Source: Bacteroidales bacterium
GTDB lineage: Bacteria > Bacteroidota > Bacteroidia > Bacteroidales > Marinilabiliaceae
Reading direction: 5' to 3'
NCBI GenBank assembly: GCA_024401335.1
Contig: JAKSLH010000001.1
Coordinates: 248,001-312,000, forward strand
DNA length: 64,000 bases
Of the stretch, positions 2,831-8,857 are shown one piece after another; within the stretch, counting starts at the first letter, position 1; every line of letters begins with the position of its first letter. The position numbers were made by a program, and so were the translations under genes. The notes below the pieces were generated by a model. The model was not told the origin of the DNA. It did not search any database and saw nothing but the letters and a program-made list of their open reading frames with translations.

Positions 2831-5251
2831 ATGGCAAAACGTAAAGCAGATGTGGAAGAAAAGCATAGCAAGATGGTCACTGCCATCATGCAGGCTATGA
2901 CGCAACGCGCCGGAGAATCATTCAATTATAAGCAGGTTACCGAGATGATCGGCTTGAAGAGTAAGAGCGATCGTCTTGAAGTGCAGGACTTGCTCTTTGA
3001 GATGGCTGATGCCGGAATGATTATCGAGGGTGTAGCAGGTAAATATCATGTGCCTGGAGGTTCAACAAGTGACGGCGCTGCAATAGTTGTCGGCATAGTT
3101 GATATGTCGGCTAGCGGTTTTGCCTATGTCATCCCTGAAGATAAGGAGCAGTATCCCGACGATATCTTTGTCCCTGCTCATGCTCTTAACTCGGCTCTTG
3201 ACGACGATAAGGTTGAGGTCGCTATTACTAAGAAGCGCAAAGGACGTGCTCCTGAAGGCGAGATTGTCAAGGTGCTCGAGAGAAAGAGAAGTCAGTTCGT
3301 TGGCGTCCTCGAATATCAGCCCGACGGTCACGCGTTTGTACGAATGGATTCGAGGACTCTTGGCGGCCGTGATATATATATCCCTAAGGAACGTGTTCCA
3401 TCTGATGCCAACTTCAAGAAGGTTGTTGTCAAGATTACCGACTGGCCTCGCGATGCTAAAAGCCCTTTCGGTGAGGTGATCGACGTGCTCGGTGATGCTG
3501 GCGATAATCAGACTGAAATGCACGCTATTTTGGCTGAATTTGGCTTGCCTTATGGCTATCCGGAAGAGGTGGCTAAGGAGGCCGAGAAGATTGATCCTGG
3601 TATCACTCCAGAAGAGATCGCTAAGCGTCTCGATATGCGCGATGTGGTTACTTTCACTATCGACCCTAAGGATGCTAAGGACTTCGACGATGCTCTCTCT
3701 ATCCGTAAGCTCAATTCGGGCAACTGGGAGGTCGGCGTTCATATCGCTGATGTCACTCACTATGTCCAGCCTCATTCTATAATCGATGAGGAGGGCTACA
3801 AGAGAGCTACTTCTGTCTATCTTGTCGACCGCACTATTCCGATGTTGCCAGAGCGTCTCTCCAACTTCCTCTGTTCACTTCGTCAGGATGAGGAGAAGCT
3901 TACCTATTCTGTTGTCTTCATTATGAACGACAATGCTGAAATATTGGGCTCTCAGATTAGTAAGACTGTTATAAAGTCCAACCGTCGATTTACCTACGAA
4001 GAGGCACAGGCTCTTATTGAGGCTCAAAGCGACGAGGCTGCAAAGTCTCTCCCTGGCTACGAATACCGTAATGAGATTCTTAAGCTCAACGAACTGGCTA
4101 AGCTGGTGCGTAAAAGGCGTTTCGATGAGGGTGCTATTGGGTTCGAACGTGTTGAACCTCGTTTCGAGATCGACGAGACGGGTAAGCCTATCAGTGTCTA
4201 TTTCAAGGAGGCTAAGGAGGCTAACAAGCTTATTGAGGAGTTCATGCTCTTGGCCAACAAGAAGGTGGCTGAATGTATCGGTAAGGACGAGATCAACGCT
4301 ACAGCTCGTAAGCGTACTCCTAAGACTTTCGTCTATCGTGTCCATGATGAGCCTAACGAAGAGAAATATAGTAAGTTCGCTACCTTCGTCCGCCGATTCG
4401 GATATGAGGCTATGCCTAAGAAGGGCGAGGAGATCAACAATGCTGTCAACCGTATCCTGAGCGAAGTTAAGGGTAAGGGTGAACAGAACATGGTAGAGGT
4501 GTTGGCTGTTCGCACAATGGCCAAGGCTTGCTATACTACCAAGAATATTGGTCACTATGGTCTTGCTTTCGATTTCTATACTCACTTTACTTCTCCTATC
4601 CGCCGTTACCCTGATATGATGGTTCACCGTCTGCTCCACTCTTACCTTAATGGCGGCAAGAGTGCTAATGGTGAGGCCTACGAGGACTTCTGTAAGCATT
4701 GCTCTGATCAGGAGATACTGGCTTCCGAGGCTGAACGCGCTTCTATCAAGTATAAGCAGGTTGAATTCCTTATCGACCATATCGGCGAGGATTTCCAGGC
4801 TACTATATCGGGCGTTACCGAATGGGGCATTTATGCAGAAATCGACGAGAACAAGTGCGAAGGTATGATCCCTCTGCGCGACCTCGATGATGATACTTAC
4901 TACTTCGACGAGGATAACTATTGCGCTGTTGGCCGTAATAGTGGCAGGAAATACCAGCTTGGCGATAAGATTAAGATTCGTATCGCTAATGCTAATCTTG
5001 AGAAGAAACAGCTCGACTTTACCGTTGCAGGAACTCCTCTGAAGGACATAGAGATTCAAAATCAGAAGCTCAAAGAGGCCGGTAAGCGTCCTGGTATCTC
5101 TTATGGCGCTACCTCACGCGATAAGGCTAAGCAGGTGAAGGCTTCGGCAAGAGATAATAAGCCTAAAGCTAGCGGAAAACCGCCAAAGAGTGTCCTTAAG
5201 AAGGCTAAGAAGCAGGGTAAGACTAAGGGCAAGGGCAAGAAAAAGAAATGA
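2831..5251 (+). CDS. rnr: Ribonuclease R
   Basis: This 806-residue 3'-to-5' exoribonuclease degrades structured RNA in the cytoplasm. An N-terminal helix-turn-helix-like region (about 14-70) is followed by cold-shock/OB domains (about 75-240). The RNB catalytic domain carries its metal-binding aspartates in IDPKDAKDFDDA (D278, D284, D286, D287) and the block HYGLAFDFYTHFTSPIRRYPD... near 575-595. An S1 domain (about 655-735) and a lysine-rich tail (from about 760) that helps bind structured RNA follow. Length and order fit RNase R/VacB. It has its own promoter and terminator. Confidence 0.95.
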   Translation: MAKRKADVEEKHSKMVTAIMQAMTQRAGESFNYKQVTEMIGLKSKSDRLEVQDLLFEMADAGMIIEGVAGKYHVPGGSTSDGAAIVVGIVDMSASGFAYVIPEDKEQYPDDIFVPAHALNSALDDDKVEVAITKKRKGRAPEGEIVKVLERKRSQFVGVLEYQPDGHAFVRMDSRTLGGRDIYIPKERVPSDANFKKVVVKITDWPRDAKSPFGEVIDVLGDAGDNQTEMHAILAEFGLPYGYPEEVAKEAEKIDPGITPEEIAKRLDMRDVVTFTIDPKDAKDFDDALSIRKLNSGNWEVGVHIADVTHYVQPHSIIDEEGYKRATSVYLVDRTIPMLPERLSNFLCSLRQDEEKLTYSVVFIMNDNAEILGSQISKTVIKSNRRFTYEEAQALIEAQSDEAAKSLPGYEYRNEILKLNELAKLVRKRRFDEGAIGFERVEPRFEIDETGKPISVYFKEAKEANKLIEEFMLLANKKVAECIGKDEINATARKRTPKTFVYRVHDEPNEEKYSKFATFVRRFGYEAMPKKGEEINNAVNRILSEVKGKGEQNMVEVLAVRTMAKACYTTKNIGHYGLAFDFYTHFTSPIRRYPDMMVHRLLHSYLNGGKSANGEAYEDFCKHCSDQEILASEAERASIKYKQVEFLIDHIGEDFQATISGVTEWGIYAEIDENKCEGMIPLRDLDDDTYYFDEDNYCAVGRNSGRKYQLGDKIKIRIANANLEKKQLDFTVAGTPLKDIEIQNQKLKEAGKRPGISYGATSRDKAKQVKASARDNKPKASGKPPKSVLKKAKKQGKTKGKGKKKK

Positions 5252-5274: not shown

Positions 5275-5307
5275 AGGGACTTCGCGTTTGCGGAGTCCCT
5301 TTTTTTG
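5275..5307 (+). terminator. Intrinsic terminator of rnr
   Basis: AGGGACT pairs with AGTCCCT around the inner TCGC-GTTT-GCGG, followed by seven T residues. Confidence 0.9.
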
Positions 5308-5398: not shown

Positions 5399-5533
5399 TA
5401 TTTTTGCACACCGATAAATATAAAGCAAAACAAATTATGGACGATTATCATCCGGAACCTATAACGCTGCTGTAGAGACTTCACCTAATCATGAGTCTCT
5501 GCAATGTATGTGTTATATAAACAGAGACTGACA
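5399..5533 (+). promoter_or_regulatory. corA leader: promoter, mini-ORF and two exclusive hairpins
   Basis: TATTTTTG at 5399-5406 is a -7 element that would start transcription near 5411. The leader then holds a 12-codon ORF (5437-5475). AGAGACT occurs at 5474-5480 and again at 5523-5529, with its complement AGTCTCT between them at 5494-5500. Only one pairing can form at a time. Hairpin 1 (5472-5502) starts inside the mini-ORF stop codon. Hairpin 2 (5494-5529, 8 bp with G5501-C5522) ends four bases before the corA ATG and would hide its initiation region. The layout is that of a translation-coupled switch. Confidence 0.6.
5437..5475 (+). CDS. Putative leader peptide MDDYHPEPITLL upstream of corA
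   Basis: ATG 5437 opens a 12-codon frame ending in TAG 5473-5475. The peptide is acidic and proline-containing (DD near the start, then PEP). Such sequences destabilise translating ribosomes at low magnesium, as shown for the MgtL leader of enterobacterial mgtA. Its stop codon overlaps the first base pairs of leader hairpin 1, so ribosome position could choose between the two hairpins. The ORF is too short to prove from one sequence. The support is its position, its composition and the hairpin geometry. Confidence 0.45.
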   Translation: MDDYHPEPITLL

Positions 5534-6463
5534 ATGATTACATTCTACATCAACACCAAAGGATTCGAGGTGACAGATAAGTGGGAATCAGGATGTTGGA
5601 CTAGTATCGAGTGCCCAACAGCTGAAGAGACAAATTTCCTCATATCTGGTCTTGAAGTGCCAGAAAGCTTCCTTTCCGACATTGACGATAACGACGAGAG
5701 ACCTCGTCGAGAAGAAGAAGATGGCTGGCAGTTGATTGTCTTGCGAGTTCCTTATCGTAAAGACTCCCATAGCCATATCGATTATACCACCGTGCCTCTT
5801 GGCATGATACTCAAGGATGATATCTTTATTACCGTTTGTAATTATAAGCTCGATATCATCGATGATTTTGCGGTATATTCCATTCGTAAGCAGATAACAG
5901 TTGCTAACCACTACGAACTTGTGCTGCGCCTTATGCTCTCTGCTTCTGTATGGTTCCTTAAGTATCTTAAGCACATAAATATCCACATGATGCAGGTTCA
6001 GAACGAACTTCAGCAGTCAGTGCGTAACAAGGAGATCGTCGAACTTCAGAGAATCGACAACTCTCTCGTCTATTTTGTGACTTCTTTGAAGGGTAATGAC
6101 GTGCTTTTCTATAGAATGGTGCATACTAAGTCTATTCGCGACATTTGCGACGATGAATTGGTCGAGGATGTTGAGATTGAGCTTAAGCAGGCCGAGGAGA
6201 CAACCAATATCTATAGAAATATCAACCATAGCTTGTCCAACAGCTACTCTTCTTTGATCTCTAATAATATCAACTCTACAATGAAGCAGCTTACGAGTAT
6301 CACTATAATACTCATGCTACCAACGCTCGTTGCTTCGTTGTTTGGTATGAATGTGCCTAACTATATGGAGAATAATCCATTCGCAATGGCATATATCATA
6401 GGTGGGTCAATTGTGCTTAGCCTGATACTCTATCTGTTCATGAAGAAGCGCGACTTCTTTTAG
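5534..6463 (+). CDS. corA: CorA family divalent cation transporter
   Basis: This 309-residue protein is a CorA/MIT-type channel for magnesium (possibly cobalt or nickel) in the inner membrane, acting as a pentamer. It has the acidic N-terminal cytoplasmic domain, a long helical stalk (about 150-245) and two C-terminal membrane segments. The signature GMN sits at the end of TM1 (FGMNVP, near residue 272). The protein ends with the basic MKKRDFF. ATG 5534 is preferred to the in-frame ATG 5504, because the latter adds ten residues unlike the family and lies inside the hairpin-2 loop. Expression is probably controlled by the leader at 5399-5533. Confidence 0.9.
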   Translation: MITFYINTKGFEVTDKWESGCWTSIECPTAEETNFLISGLEVPESFLSDIDDNDERPRREEEDGWQLIVLRVPYRKDSHSHIDYTTVPLGMILKDDIFITVCNYKLDIIDDFAVYSIRKQITVANHYELVLRLMLSASVWFLKYLKHINIHMMQVQNELQQSVRNKEIVELQRIDNSLVYFVTSLKGNDVLFYRMVHTKSIRDICDDELVEDVEIELKQAEETTNIYRNINHSLSNSYSSLISNNINSTMKQLTSITIILMLPTLVASLFGMNVPNYMENNPFAMAYIIGGSIVLSLILYLFMKKRDFF

Positions 6464-6706: not shown

Positions 6707-6958
6707 ATGAAGATGAAAGGCTTATTAGTAACACTTGGAATTGCAGTAGCGATTGTTGCTGGTGTTTTGTATGTTAGCTCAAATGCTGAAAACAATGAAA
6801 AGATTGATGTTGCAGCTGATTTCAACATTGACCTTAACCAGAATGAGAATCTTTGCGACCTCGTTTTCGATGCAAACGGAGTTCTCATTTCCAACACTAC
6901 TTATGCTTGGAATGCACAGAGCAACACTCGCGGCGAGATTCTTGCTAGCGTAAAATAA
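6707..6958 (+). CDS. Small secreted or membrane-anchored hypothetical protein
   Basis: The gene encodes 83 residues with a basic start and a hydrophobic segment (about 5-24), consistent with a signal peptide or N-terminal anchor. The mature part is acidic and asparagine-rich and ends NTRGEILASVK. I do not recognise a family. Its layout resembles the short Bacteroidota exported peptides such as NVEALA-type proteins, but the hallmark is absent. It stops three bases before the ABC-F start, so the two are co-transcribed and perhaps translationally coupled. Confidence 0.6.
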   Translation: MKMKGLLVTLGIAVAIVAGVLYVSSNAENNEKIDVAADFNIDLNQNENLCDLVFDANGVLISNTTYAWNAQSNTRGEILASVK

Positions 6959-6961
6959 TTG

Positions 6962-8857
6962 ATGAACTATCTATCGGTAGAGAATCTGTCATATCATTGG
7001 GGCGATGTTTGCCTCTTCGATGATATCAGTTTTGGAATTAATGAAGGTCAGAAGACAGCTCTAGTAGCCAGAAATGGCACAGGGAAGACTACTCTTCTGA
7101 ATATGTTGACGGCAAAACTGCCGAATTCTTCTTCCGATGGTAAGTTATATCCTGATGAGGGTCGAATAATCTTCAATGAAGATGTTCGAGTGGGATACCT
7201 ACCCCAAAACCCTTATTTTAATAACGAGAATACGGTCATTCAGCAGGTGTTCGAATGTGGCACCGAGGTGACTGATGCTATTCGCGACTATGCTTTGGCA
7301 TTGGAGTCTTCCGATGTCGATCTTATAGCTAAGGCTACCGATCGCATGGATTCACTCAAAGCATGGGATTATGAGCAGAGAATTAAGCAGATTCTCTCTC
7401 AGCTTCATATCAATGATTTTAATCAACAGGTTAAAAACTTGTCAGGCGGTCAGCAAAAACGTGTTGCTTTGGCCGCTTTGCTTATTTCTTCTCCTTCGTT
7501 CCTCATTCTTGATGAGCCAACCAACCACCTTGACCTTGATATTATTGATTGGCTTGAAGACTATCTTACACGTTCCAATATTACTCTTTTGATGGTCACT
7601 CACGACCGCTATTTTCTCGATAGAGTATGCTCCGATATATTGGAGCTTGACGAGCATAAGATATGGCATTATGAGGGCAACTACTCTTACTATCTGAATA
7701 AAAAGCAGGAACGACAGAATATGCGTTCTGCCGAGGCTGATAAGGCCCGCAATTTGTTGCGCCGTGAGCAGGACTGGATGAATCGTCAGCCTCAGGCTCG
7801 AGGTACTAAGGCTCAATACCGCATCGATGCTTTCTATGAACTTCAGGAAAAGGCTAAGGACCCTTCTGCTCAGCAGTCGCTCCAGTTGCAGTTCGCTGCT
7901 CAACGTATGGGTAAGAAGGTTATTGATGTCTATAATATCGCTAAGTCTTTCGGTGATAAGCATCTGATAAACGACTTCTCCTATAAGTTTGTCCCTAAGG
8001 AAAAGGTTGCTATCGTAGGCGATAATGGCTGTGGAAAGACTACGCTGCTTAATATGCTTACTGGCGCTTTGCAGCCCGATAACGGACATATTGAGGTCGG
8101 TGAAACTATTGTGTTCGGCTATTATAGGCAGGAGGGTATTACCGTCAACGAGGGGAAGACTGTTCTTGAGGTTATTACCGATATAGCCGATCATATACGT
8201 GTTGGTGGCGACAAGACGATGTCTGCGGCTCAGTTCTTGCGCTATTTCATGTTCTCTAATGAACTTCACCATGTCGAGGTTAATAAGCTTTCTGGTGGCG
8301 AAAAAAAGCGTCTCTATCTGCTTACTGTTCTGGTGAAGAATCCTAACTTCCTGATACTCGACGAGCCGACGAATGATCTCGATATCCTTACGTTGAATGT
8401 ACTTGAGGATTATCTTGCAGAGTTCCAGGGTACGGTGATTGTTGTGTCACACGACAGGTTCTTTGTGGATAAGATTGCTCAGCATTTGTTTGTCCTTGAT
8501 GGCAAGGGTGGGGTGAAGGACTTCCCTGGTGATTACTCTGATTATATCGTCTGGAGAAAAAACAATGAGAGGTCTTTGGTGACAGAGGCTAAGACTAAGA
8601 GTGAACCTGTCGAGAAGAAGCCTGCAAAGAGCAACGAGAAACGTCGATTGACTTATAATGAGAAAAAGGAGTTCGCTGCAATAGAAGAGGAGATGTCTAG
8701 GTTGACTGAACGTAAGTCTGAAATAGAGTCTCTTATGAGCGGCGGAACAAACGATGCTAACGAATTGGTGTCTCTTTCCGATGAGTACCAAAAAGTTAGC
8801 CAACGCCTCGATGAGATTGAGATGCGTTGGCTAGAGTTGAGTGAATATGAGGCTTGA
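6962..8857 (+). CDS. ABC-F family ATPase (Uup-like)
   Basis: This 631-residue soluble protein has two ABC cassettes and no membrane segments, as in ABC-F translation factors. Cassette 1 has Walker A RNGTGKTT (near 38-45), signature LSGGQQKRVALA and Walker B FLILDEPTNHLD. Cassette 2 has GDNGCGKTT, LSGGEKKRLYL and FLILDEPTNDLD. A charged coiled-coil tail (about 545-631) resembles Uup, which works on ribosomes or DNA intermediates. A TTG directly before ATG 6962 is the only earlier start. It ends five bases from the convergent HTCS gene with no clear terminator between them. Confidence 0.9.
   Translation: MNYLSVENLSYHWGDVCLFDDISFGINEGQKTALVARNGTGKTTLLNMLTAKLPNSSSDGKLYPDEGRIIFNEDVRVGYLPQNPYFNNENTVIQQVFECGTEVTDAIRDYALALESSDVDLIAKATDRMDSLKAWDYEQRIKQILSQLHINDFNQQVKNLSGGQQKRVALAALLISSPSFLILDEPTNHLDLDIIDWLEDYLTRSNITLLMVTHDRYFLDRVCSDILELDEHKIWHYEGNYSYYLNKKQERQNMRSAEADKARNLLRREQDWMNRQPQARGTKAQYRIDAFYELQEKAKDPSAQQSLQLQFAAQRMGKKVIDVYNIAKSFGDKHLINDFSYKFVPKEKVAIVGDNGCGKTTLLNMLTGALQPDNGHIEVGETIVFGYYRQEGITVNEGKTVLEVITDIADHIRVGGDKTMSAAQFLRYFMFSNELHHVEVNKLSGGEKKRLYLLTVLVKNPNFLILDEPTNDLDILTLNVLEDYLAEFQGTVIVVSHDRFFVDKIAQHLFVLDGKGGVKDFPGDYSDYIVWRKNNERSLVTEAKTKSEPVEKKPAKSNEKRRLTYNEKKEFAAIEEEMSRLTERKSEIESLMSGGTNDANELVSLSDEYQKVSQRLDEIEMRWLELSEYEA

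Follow-up and report, generated by a model that had tools for sequence, protein, structure and literature searches.

A candidate leader-peptide attenuator for magnesium transport genes in Bacteroidales

A short leader ORF and three complementary RNA segments precede the corA gene in the window (the whole stretch of 64,000 nucleotides that was analysed), and related modules reside upstream of corA and of several unrelated magnesium transporter genes in other genomes of the order. Comparison of these leaders gives good support to a leader-peptide attenuator architecture, in which a mini-ORF is combined with two mutually exclusive helices. We consider it quite probable that the module acts as a translational attenuator, in which ribosome drop-off on an acidic peptide would free the transporter's ribosome-binding site (RBS) at low Mg2+.

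The corA locus

The presumed regulated gene lies at 5534..6463 on the + strand and encodes a CorA-like Mg2+ transporter (Pfam PF01544, E 7.5e-44), which scores under the NCBIfam corA equivalog cut-off (81.6 vs 200.75 bits). Because orthologs begin with MITFYIN-like residues, translation likely starts at the ATG at 5534, not at an alternative in-frame ATG at 5504. An RNase R-like gene with RNB and S1 domains ends at 5251, and a terminator-like hairpin at 5275-5300 separates it from the corA leader; thus, corA probably forms a separate transcription unit. On the other side of corA, positions 6716-6958 hold an 80-codon ORF with no Pfam match, followed at 6959-8857 by an EttA/Uup-like ABC-F ATPase gene. 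This gene was considered as a co-conserved EttA-like partner and rejected: no ABC-F-like ORF was found 3' of corA in eight relatives.

The corA leader begins with the box TATTTTTG (5399..5406, + strand), whose letters match TAnnTTTG, which we take to be the Bacteroidota-type -7 promoter box. The mini-ORF that follows, MDDYHPEPITLL (5437..5475, + strand), runs for 12 codons from an ATG at 5437 to a TAG stop codon at 5473-5475, and its acidic residues 2 and 3 are the proposed sensor. Segment 1 (TGTAGAGACTT, 5471..5481, + strand) overlaps this stop codon, and segment 3 (CAGAGACT, 5522..5529, + strand) is located 5 to 12 bases 5' of the corA start. Both could pair with segment 2 (GAGTCTCTGCA, 5493..5503, + strand), which is assigned as their common partner on the basis of pairing, folding and covariation in relatives. 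Helix 1:2, the proposed ON state, joins 5471-5481 with 5493-5503 in 11 pairs, whereas helix 2:3, the proposed OFF state, takes 5522-5529. The 7-base cores are AGAGACT at 5474-5480, AGTCTCT at 5494-5500 and a second AGAGACT at 5523-5529. The original prediction, which described this promoter, 12-codon ORF and set of three 7-base segments, was accurate as to their positions. It had also assumed a Prevotella or Segatella host; however, in a scan of named genomes (30 loci), the nearest CorA relatives are from uncultured Bacteroidales / Marinilabiliaceae-like MAGs, with 88-90% identity. Further relatives in that scan show 64-73% identity, and the proteins of cultured species, Anaerophaga thermohalophila and Carboxylicivirga linearis among them, are 37-38% identical to the window CorA.

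The three-way pairing score of the window leader is 20, compared with a mean of 11.3 for shuffles of the intervening bases, none of which (0/100) reaches 20. In silico, the free RNA folds as helix 1:2, with the corA start region 0.67 unpaired. Placing a ribosome at the leader stop yields helix 2:3 over the corA start (0.36 unpaired), and placing it on the first leader codons leaves this start 0.65 or 0.70 unpaired in two placements. A block that covers 27 bases at the 5' end of the ORF lowers the value to 0.37, so the predicted switch point depends on the ribosome footprint. The isolated 73-nt RNA is only mildly stable (z -1.7; 9/200 shuffles fold equally well). Because the fold of this lone RNA is unremarkable, the case for a switch in the window rests on comparison with relatives.

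Conservation of the leader ORF and of two alternative helices

CorA ortholog sets were drawn from the genus (15 genomes), family (71), order (295) and phylum (296). A mini-ORF was scored when an ATG ORF of 7-31 codons started 70-200 nt upstream of the gene, stopped at least 30 nt upstream, and began with M[DE][DEGA]. Ten loci were dropped before counting: four for which no start was found, four that were the window's own, unrelated or repeat loci, and two paralogs. Identical upstream regions (15 pairs) were counted once. By this rule, a mini-ORF is present in 91 of the 146 distinct regions upstream of corA-type genes, a set that includes distant paralogs, compared with 85 of 7300 dinucleotide shuffles. 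In the order sample, a mini-ORF of the form M-[DE]-[DEGA] is found close upstream in 48/61 corA orthologs and 34/40 families (1.2% in shuffled regions; one incomplete locus, G316:C102, of the 62 was left out). Conservation of the mini-ORF, which had been proposed as a check, therefore extends across the order.

An acidic residue 2 is built into this rule, and we also used a promoter-anchored choice that is independent of residue identity, which takes ORFs 23-45 nt past a TAnnTTTG box and at most 330 nt from corA. Such ORFs exist in 40/61 orthologs, and the first ORF of each begins M-[DE]-[DE] (40/40), with D (39) or E (1) as residue 2 and D (30) or E (10) as residue 3. Among the 91 leaders, 86 have at least two acidic residues at positions 2-4, and none has Lys or Arg at positions 2-5. 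The idea of an acidic, proline-containing leader thus holds for its acidic part, whereas proline, present within residues 2-8 in 65/91 leaders, is not universal. For this reason, acidic residues 2-3 are more likely than proline to be the sensor part of the leader.

Subsequent positions are variable (mainly Y, G, D, S or V at 4, and P, H, Y or N at 5), and leaders range from 8 to 30 codons, with 10/91 having eight. Typical peptides are MDDYHPE.., MDDYHSEY, MDEGPYHS.., MDGDPYNS.., MDDSNPRTY.. and MDDYYYSLVLN, the last type coming from a family outside the order but within its class. In three peptide groups, 39, 37 and 38% of codon differences are synonymous in the true frame, compared with 9-32% in other frames; in a fourth group, the true frame ties with frame +1. 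Third codon positions are the most variable in three of these four groups and equal in the fourth. This modest codon-level signal suggests that the leader is conserved as coding sequence. Codon 2 (5440-5442 in the window) is GAC in 84 of the 89 cases in which it encodes Asp, and codon 3 mixes GAT and GAC freely. In 75/91 leaders, the 70 nt 5' of the mini-ORF include a TAnnTTTG box, mostly at a distance of 27-41 nt.

These leader properties bear on an unlikely alternative, that an attenuator of the same build responds to another signal (for instance, translation stress in general, the state of EF-P or ABC-F, or charged tRNA) or acts by ribosome stalling instead of drop-off. Leader peptides do sense many things: Salmonella mgtP is described as answering to charged tRNA-Pro (PMC8092293), and the E. 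coli ABC-F factor EttA as acting on MgtL (PMC11282234). The proline found in 65/91 leaders would fit such a signal. However, residues beyond 2-3 vary, so no single amino acid appears to be sensed, and the 8-codon ORFs (10/91) leave a stalled ribosome scant room short of segment 1. A signal other than Mg2+ would also have to be reconciled with the genes that follow the module, nearly all of which encode magnesium transporters of unrelated families.

Conservation in the closest relatives, which had also been anticipated, did not hold: no leader lies within 200 nt of corA in 10 of 15 congeneric genomes. In four of nine distinct leaderless regions from these congeners (L005, L007, L040 and L044), the corA ATG comes 13 nt after the start of the promoter box; thus, the corA mRNA in these organisms is probably almost leaderless. 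No near leader was found in 6/40 order families with a corA ortholog, and leaders are absent from five distant CorA paralogs and from those genomes of families f122, f125 and f136 that were examined. At three order-level loci (L075, L078 and L079), the mini-ORF is distal, 253-265 nt upstream of corA. Together with L120, these form a set of same-type mini-ORFs about 253-269 nt upstream that have an extra stretch between the leader and the gene, possibly reflecting an insertion or a different output stage.

In the relatives, segment 1 sits at the leader stop codon, mostly at most 13 bases away, and segment 3 is mostly between -18 and -5 of the transporter start. The arms diverge from one leader to another (AGAGACT/AGTCTCT in the window, and CTGTAAGG/CCTTACAG, GAACAAAGG/CCTTTGTTC, TTTTGAA/TTCAAAA and others elsewhere). 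Arms and loops have little sequence in common across families, and the first ORF codons are shared. The strict three-way pairing score averages 16.5 in 91 leaders and 10.2 in shuffles; it reaches p<=0.05 in 48/91 leaders and p<=0.01 in 35/91, with 43/91 failing individually.

Covariation was assessed in an alignment termed A1. Of 34 leaders matching M[DE][DEA][GDTV]P, it contains 27; the other seven, which are divergent, were removed manually beforehand, and this selection makes a clean alignment more likely. The columns were picked after viewing the alignment and the RNAalifold result. Both helices covary in A1, with 91.9% (1:2) and 91.0% (2:3) of cells paired, versus 45-59% for slid controls. 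Double changes occur in 8/10 pairs of helix 1:2 and 7/10 pairs of helix 2:3, and 0/500 shuffles match any of these measures. RNAalifold recovers helix 2:3 and not 1:2, because a single-structure method can display only one of them. Kinship among the leaders can inflate the significance of shuffles, and an arm-swap test was therefore added. In 33 non-redundant leaders (four of the 91 leaders had been set aside for short spacing), own arms outscore swapped arms for helix 1:2 (18.0 vs 12.6, p 1e-9) and for helix 2:3 (16.8 vs 12.4, p 3e-6). The predicted covariation of the complementary segments is thus borne out for both helices.

The two helices are also favoured at the stages at which each would be needed. 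In 90 leaders (one of the 91 was left out for short spacing), the expected number of 1:2 pairs before segment 3 is transcribed is 11.7, compared with 6.1 in shuffles, and, once a ribosome occupies the stop codon, that of 2:3 pairs is 11.8, compared with 6.9. Expected pairs number at least four for both helices in 84/90 leaders, a threshold scored on real leaders only. When the fold is computed at equilibrium with a ribosome blocking the stop codon, accessibility falls by more than 0.15 in only 16/91 leaders, and the mean drop (0.045 vs -0.023 for shuffles) is significant but small. Because this effect is small, equilibrium folding with a ribosome block was dropped as the main proof, and comparative pairing was chosen instead. 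In many leaders, helix 2:3 is the stable end state; since it already wins at equilibrium, the ON state would be kinetic and co-transcriptional.

A Shine-Dalgarno (SD)-like motif is present before the gene in 67/91 regions with a leader and in 3/55 without one, an association that may be partly a clade effect. If the module instead acts by transcription attenuation, intrinsic or Rho-dependent, as in mgtL and corL, both of which have been tied to Rho-dependent termination (PMC11552253), control would not be translational. We regard this as unlikely. A T-rich stretch precedes corA in 20/91 leaders, so transcription termination may occur in some of them. However, a scan for intrinsic-terminator-like sites found none on the + strand from 5406 to 5534 in the window. 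Moreover, the usual position of segment 3 on the ribosome-binding region, and the association of the SD-like motif with the leader, argue for the translational attenuator.

Association with other magnesium transporter genes

A covariance model, R1, was built on 27 corA leaders and run on 286 genomes of the order. Its 20 matches are all directly before magnesium transporter genes, namely, 11 corA, eight mgtE and one mgtA-type P-type ATPase gene (cut by the locus end; 592 bits on TIGR01524, cut-off 611). Training leaders account for 9/11 corA matches, and the remaining 11 matches are outside the training set. R1 detects only leaders of the MDEGP kind, and the window leader is not among its matches.

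In a separate search of mgtE genes in 149 order genomes, 66 places were read and the module was found at six (L224, L225, L226, L239, L255 and L263). With L299 and L330-L333, there are 11 mgtE leaders in total, of which L226 and L255 were recognised partly by eye, and L255 and L333 begin with MKDDP and fail the M[DE] rule. Five of the six module-bearing mgtE genes have similar N-termini (judged by eye, not from a tree), on which basis the mgtE genes with the module may form a single class; L256 and L277, with the same N-terminus type, have no mini-ORF by the rule.

We also searched for the MD(E/D)GP pattern, ATGGACGAMGGCCC, which occurs at 20 places in 291 genomes, compared with about 27 in a reversed control. 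Because matches are no commoner than in the control, their location, not their number, is the evidence. Leaders make up 15 of the 20 places, and these precede seven corA genes (distal at L293), four mgtE genes, three PRC-MgtE_N-CBS genes and one OprB porin gene. The other five lack a promoter box and resemble coding sequence or chance matches. An Nramp gene comes next after two of the three leader-bearing MgtE_N-CBS genes. Three-way pairing is above all 100 shuffles for 8/9 mgtE leaders tested, for the mgtA-type leader and for one of three MgtE_N leaders; the other two MgtE_N leaders fall short of p<=0.05. At the OprB-family porin locus (L294 / L313), the MDEGP-type mini-ORF and promoter box are accompanied by no three-way pairing. 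This gene is possibly an outer-membrane member of the regulon, or the occurrence is a coincidence.

An MDDY-type pattern is found at 117 places in 295 genomes, and its reversed control also matches many genomes; 18 of the places are corA leaders already known. We read 50 of these loci, including two known corA leaders, and nearly all are within long coding ORFs. At L205/L222, a 41-codon ORF of MDDY type with a promoter box resides before a CNNM-CBS-CorC_HlyC gene, and the corA of that genome has no such leader; we consider this ORF a probable new leader. At L202/L221, a MDDYHAEN-type start overlaps the start of ksgA (rRNA dimethylase) in a ksgA-corA operon, with no promoter box found, and its status as a leader is doubtful.

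Retrieval of the module before other, unrelated families of magnesium transporters supports the magnesium reading of the original prediction. It also bears on chance, according to which a random short ORF happens to lie near random short repeats. The window alone would allow this, since it offers 7-base repeats and a hairpin with a z of -1.7, and the feature is absent from most congeners. However, mini-ORF conservation, covariation, arm swaps, the R1 matches and three-way pairing across families together render such a coincidence extremely improbable.

The gene set of the module (corA, mgtE, MgtE_N-CBS, mgtA-type and probably CNNM) is nearly that of the M-box riboswitch, which is described upstream of corA, mgtE, mgtA and MgtE_N-NrmT genes (PMC4072509). 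M-box RNAs before the MgtE_N-CBS and Nramp arrangement led to the recognition of NrmT magnesium transporters, although some NrmT proteins carry manganese, which counts against a pure magnesium link (PMC4072509). On the whole, the genes downstream of the candidate leaders make the link of the module to magnesium transport well supported. Among 149 order genomes, the M-box (RF00380) was detected in three, each time directly before an mgtE gene without a mini-ORF by the rule (L315-L317, at L227, L232 and L236; stricter filters were used here, and weak matches may be lost). These loci appear to have exchanged one magnesium device for the other.

This shared gene set (PMC4072509) would also be expected if the RNA itself bound Mg2+ as a riboswitch and the mini-ORF were secondary. 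We find this very unlikely. The window leader has no Rfam match at gathering cut-offs, M-box RF00380 included; G000 has no RF00380 match; and a permissive scan (E up to 0.5) of 17 leader loci gave nine matches, none of them on a leader. Moreover, what families share is the first ORF codons, and little of the arms or loops.

Proposed mechanism and comparison with known systems

In our model, the module acts in cis to attenuate the translation of magnesium transport genes. Transcription would start just 5' of a leader ORF that begins with Met-Asp/Glu-Asp/Glu (or Gly) and often continues with Pro. With enough Mg2+, the leader would be completed and the terminating ribosome would sit on segment 1, leaving segment 2 to pair with segment 3 at the RBS or start region and turn the transporter OFF. 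When Mg2+ is low, ribosomes carrying a short acidic nascent chain would drop off early through intrinsic ribosome destabilisation, as with MgtL; segment 1 would then be free to pair with segment 2 as the RNA emerges, and an open segment 3 would turn the transporter ON. We infer from the compared sequences and by analogy that the leader is translated, that drop-off senses Mg2+ and that the switch has this polarity. With segment 1 beneath the ribosome and segment 3 on the start region, a fully translated leader should hide the transporter start.

The closest parallels are enterobacterial. Early acidic residues of MgtL are reported to cause drop-off of E. coli ribosomes at low Mg2+, an effect countered by EttA and bL31 (PMC11282234, PMC11552253). 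The mgtL leader of mgtA in E. coli and Salmonella resembles the module in having a short ORF with early acidic and Pro codons, followed by a magnesium transporter gene. In both, efficient leader translation corresponds to OFF, with drop-off at low Mg2+ (PMC11552253, PMC11282234), although for the module this would be by analogy. However, mgtL is described as acting by Rho-dependent transcription termination, whereas the second helix of the module would cover the ribosome-binding region. The two also belong to different phyla, and we liken them by architecture, not by sequence alignment. As far as is known, mgtL serves only mgtA, whereas the Bacteroidales module stands before several transporter families.

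The corL leader of corA in E. coli and Salmonella is similar in that a leader ORF precedes corA and its translation is inverse to corA expression, but it has fewer acidic and Pro residues, and its leader RNA contains a three-way junction and is controlled by Rho (PMC11552253). Three-way junctions are described for both mgtL and corL leaders (PMC11552253), whereas the window fold and the A1 consensus are simple hairpins with no such junction, so this architecture is not shared. The ON/OFF direction that we propose would agree with that of mgtL and corL.

The mgtQ leader of Salmonella mgtC-mgtB is an 8-codon ORF in which Asp2 and Glu5 play a comparable role in a purely translational switch, with alternative stem-loops over the RBS (PMC8092293). 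It differs in being inside an operon and in having an extra arm within the ORF (1:2/3:4 vs 2:3), such that a ribosome there frees the RBS (PMC8092293); its sense is opposite because of this arm. In 17 non-redundant leaders of the module, a small sample, we found no such arm (own 12.9 vs swapped 12.3, p 0.25), and a ribosome at the stop codon should therefore bury the RBS. The M-box (ykoK, RF00380) precedes members of the same transporter families (PMC4072509), but is a 169-position aptamer, whereas the module has no RF00380 match and begins with a conserved ORF.

Taking these comparisons together, we think it likely that Bacteroidales and some of their relatives use one ribosome-based sensor for their whole magnesium regulon, upstream of CorA, MgtE, MgtE_N-NrmT, MgtA-type and CNNM genes. 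It would combine an independently evolved drop-off peptide that has an acidic N-terminus with a portable three-segment RBS switch, and would fill the role of the M-box in other bacteria. To our knowledge, magnesium sensing by ribosome drop-off has so far come only from enterobacterial leaders. The available text of open-licence literature, PMC8040213 and PMC7324362 included, holds no account of such a leader in Bacteroidota. In B. thetaiotaomicron, short ORFs in long 5' UTRs have been called reminiscent of leader peptides, with corA not named in the text at hand (PMC7366714). Thus, this looks like a previously undescribed magnesium device that is distributed across Bacteroidales and some relatives, both gut and environmental.

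If the model is correct, magnesium sensing through ribosome drop-off induced by the nascent chain would also be a major mechanism in this phylum, whose members abound in the gut. Bacteria of this group mostly do without Shine-Dalgarno sequences, and the mechanism would help account for the SD-like sequence retained before these transporter genes. The module could also serve as a handle for finding magnesium-specific transporters, in the way that NrmT was recognised through the M-box. More broadly, ribosomes themselves would seem to serve as a general magnesium sensor, put to regulatory use on more than one occasion in evolution.
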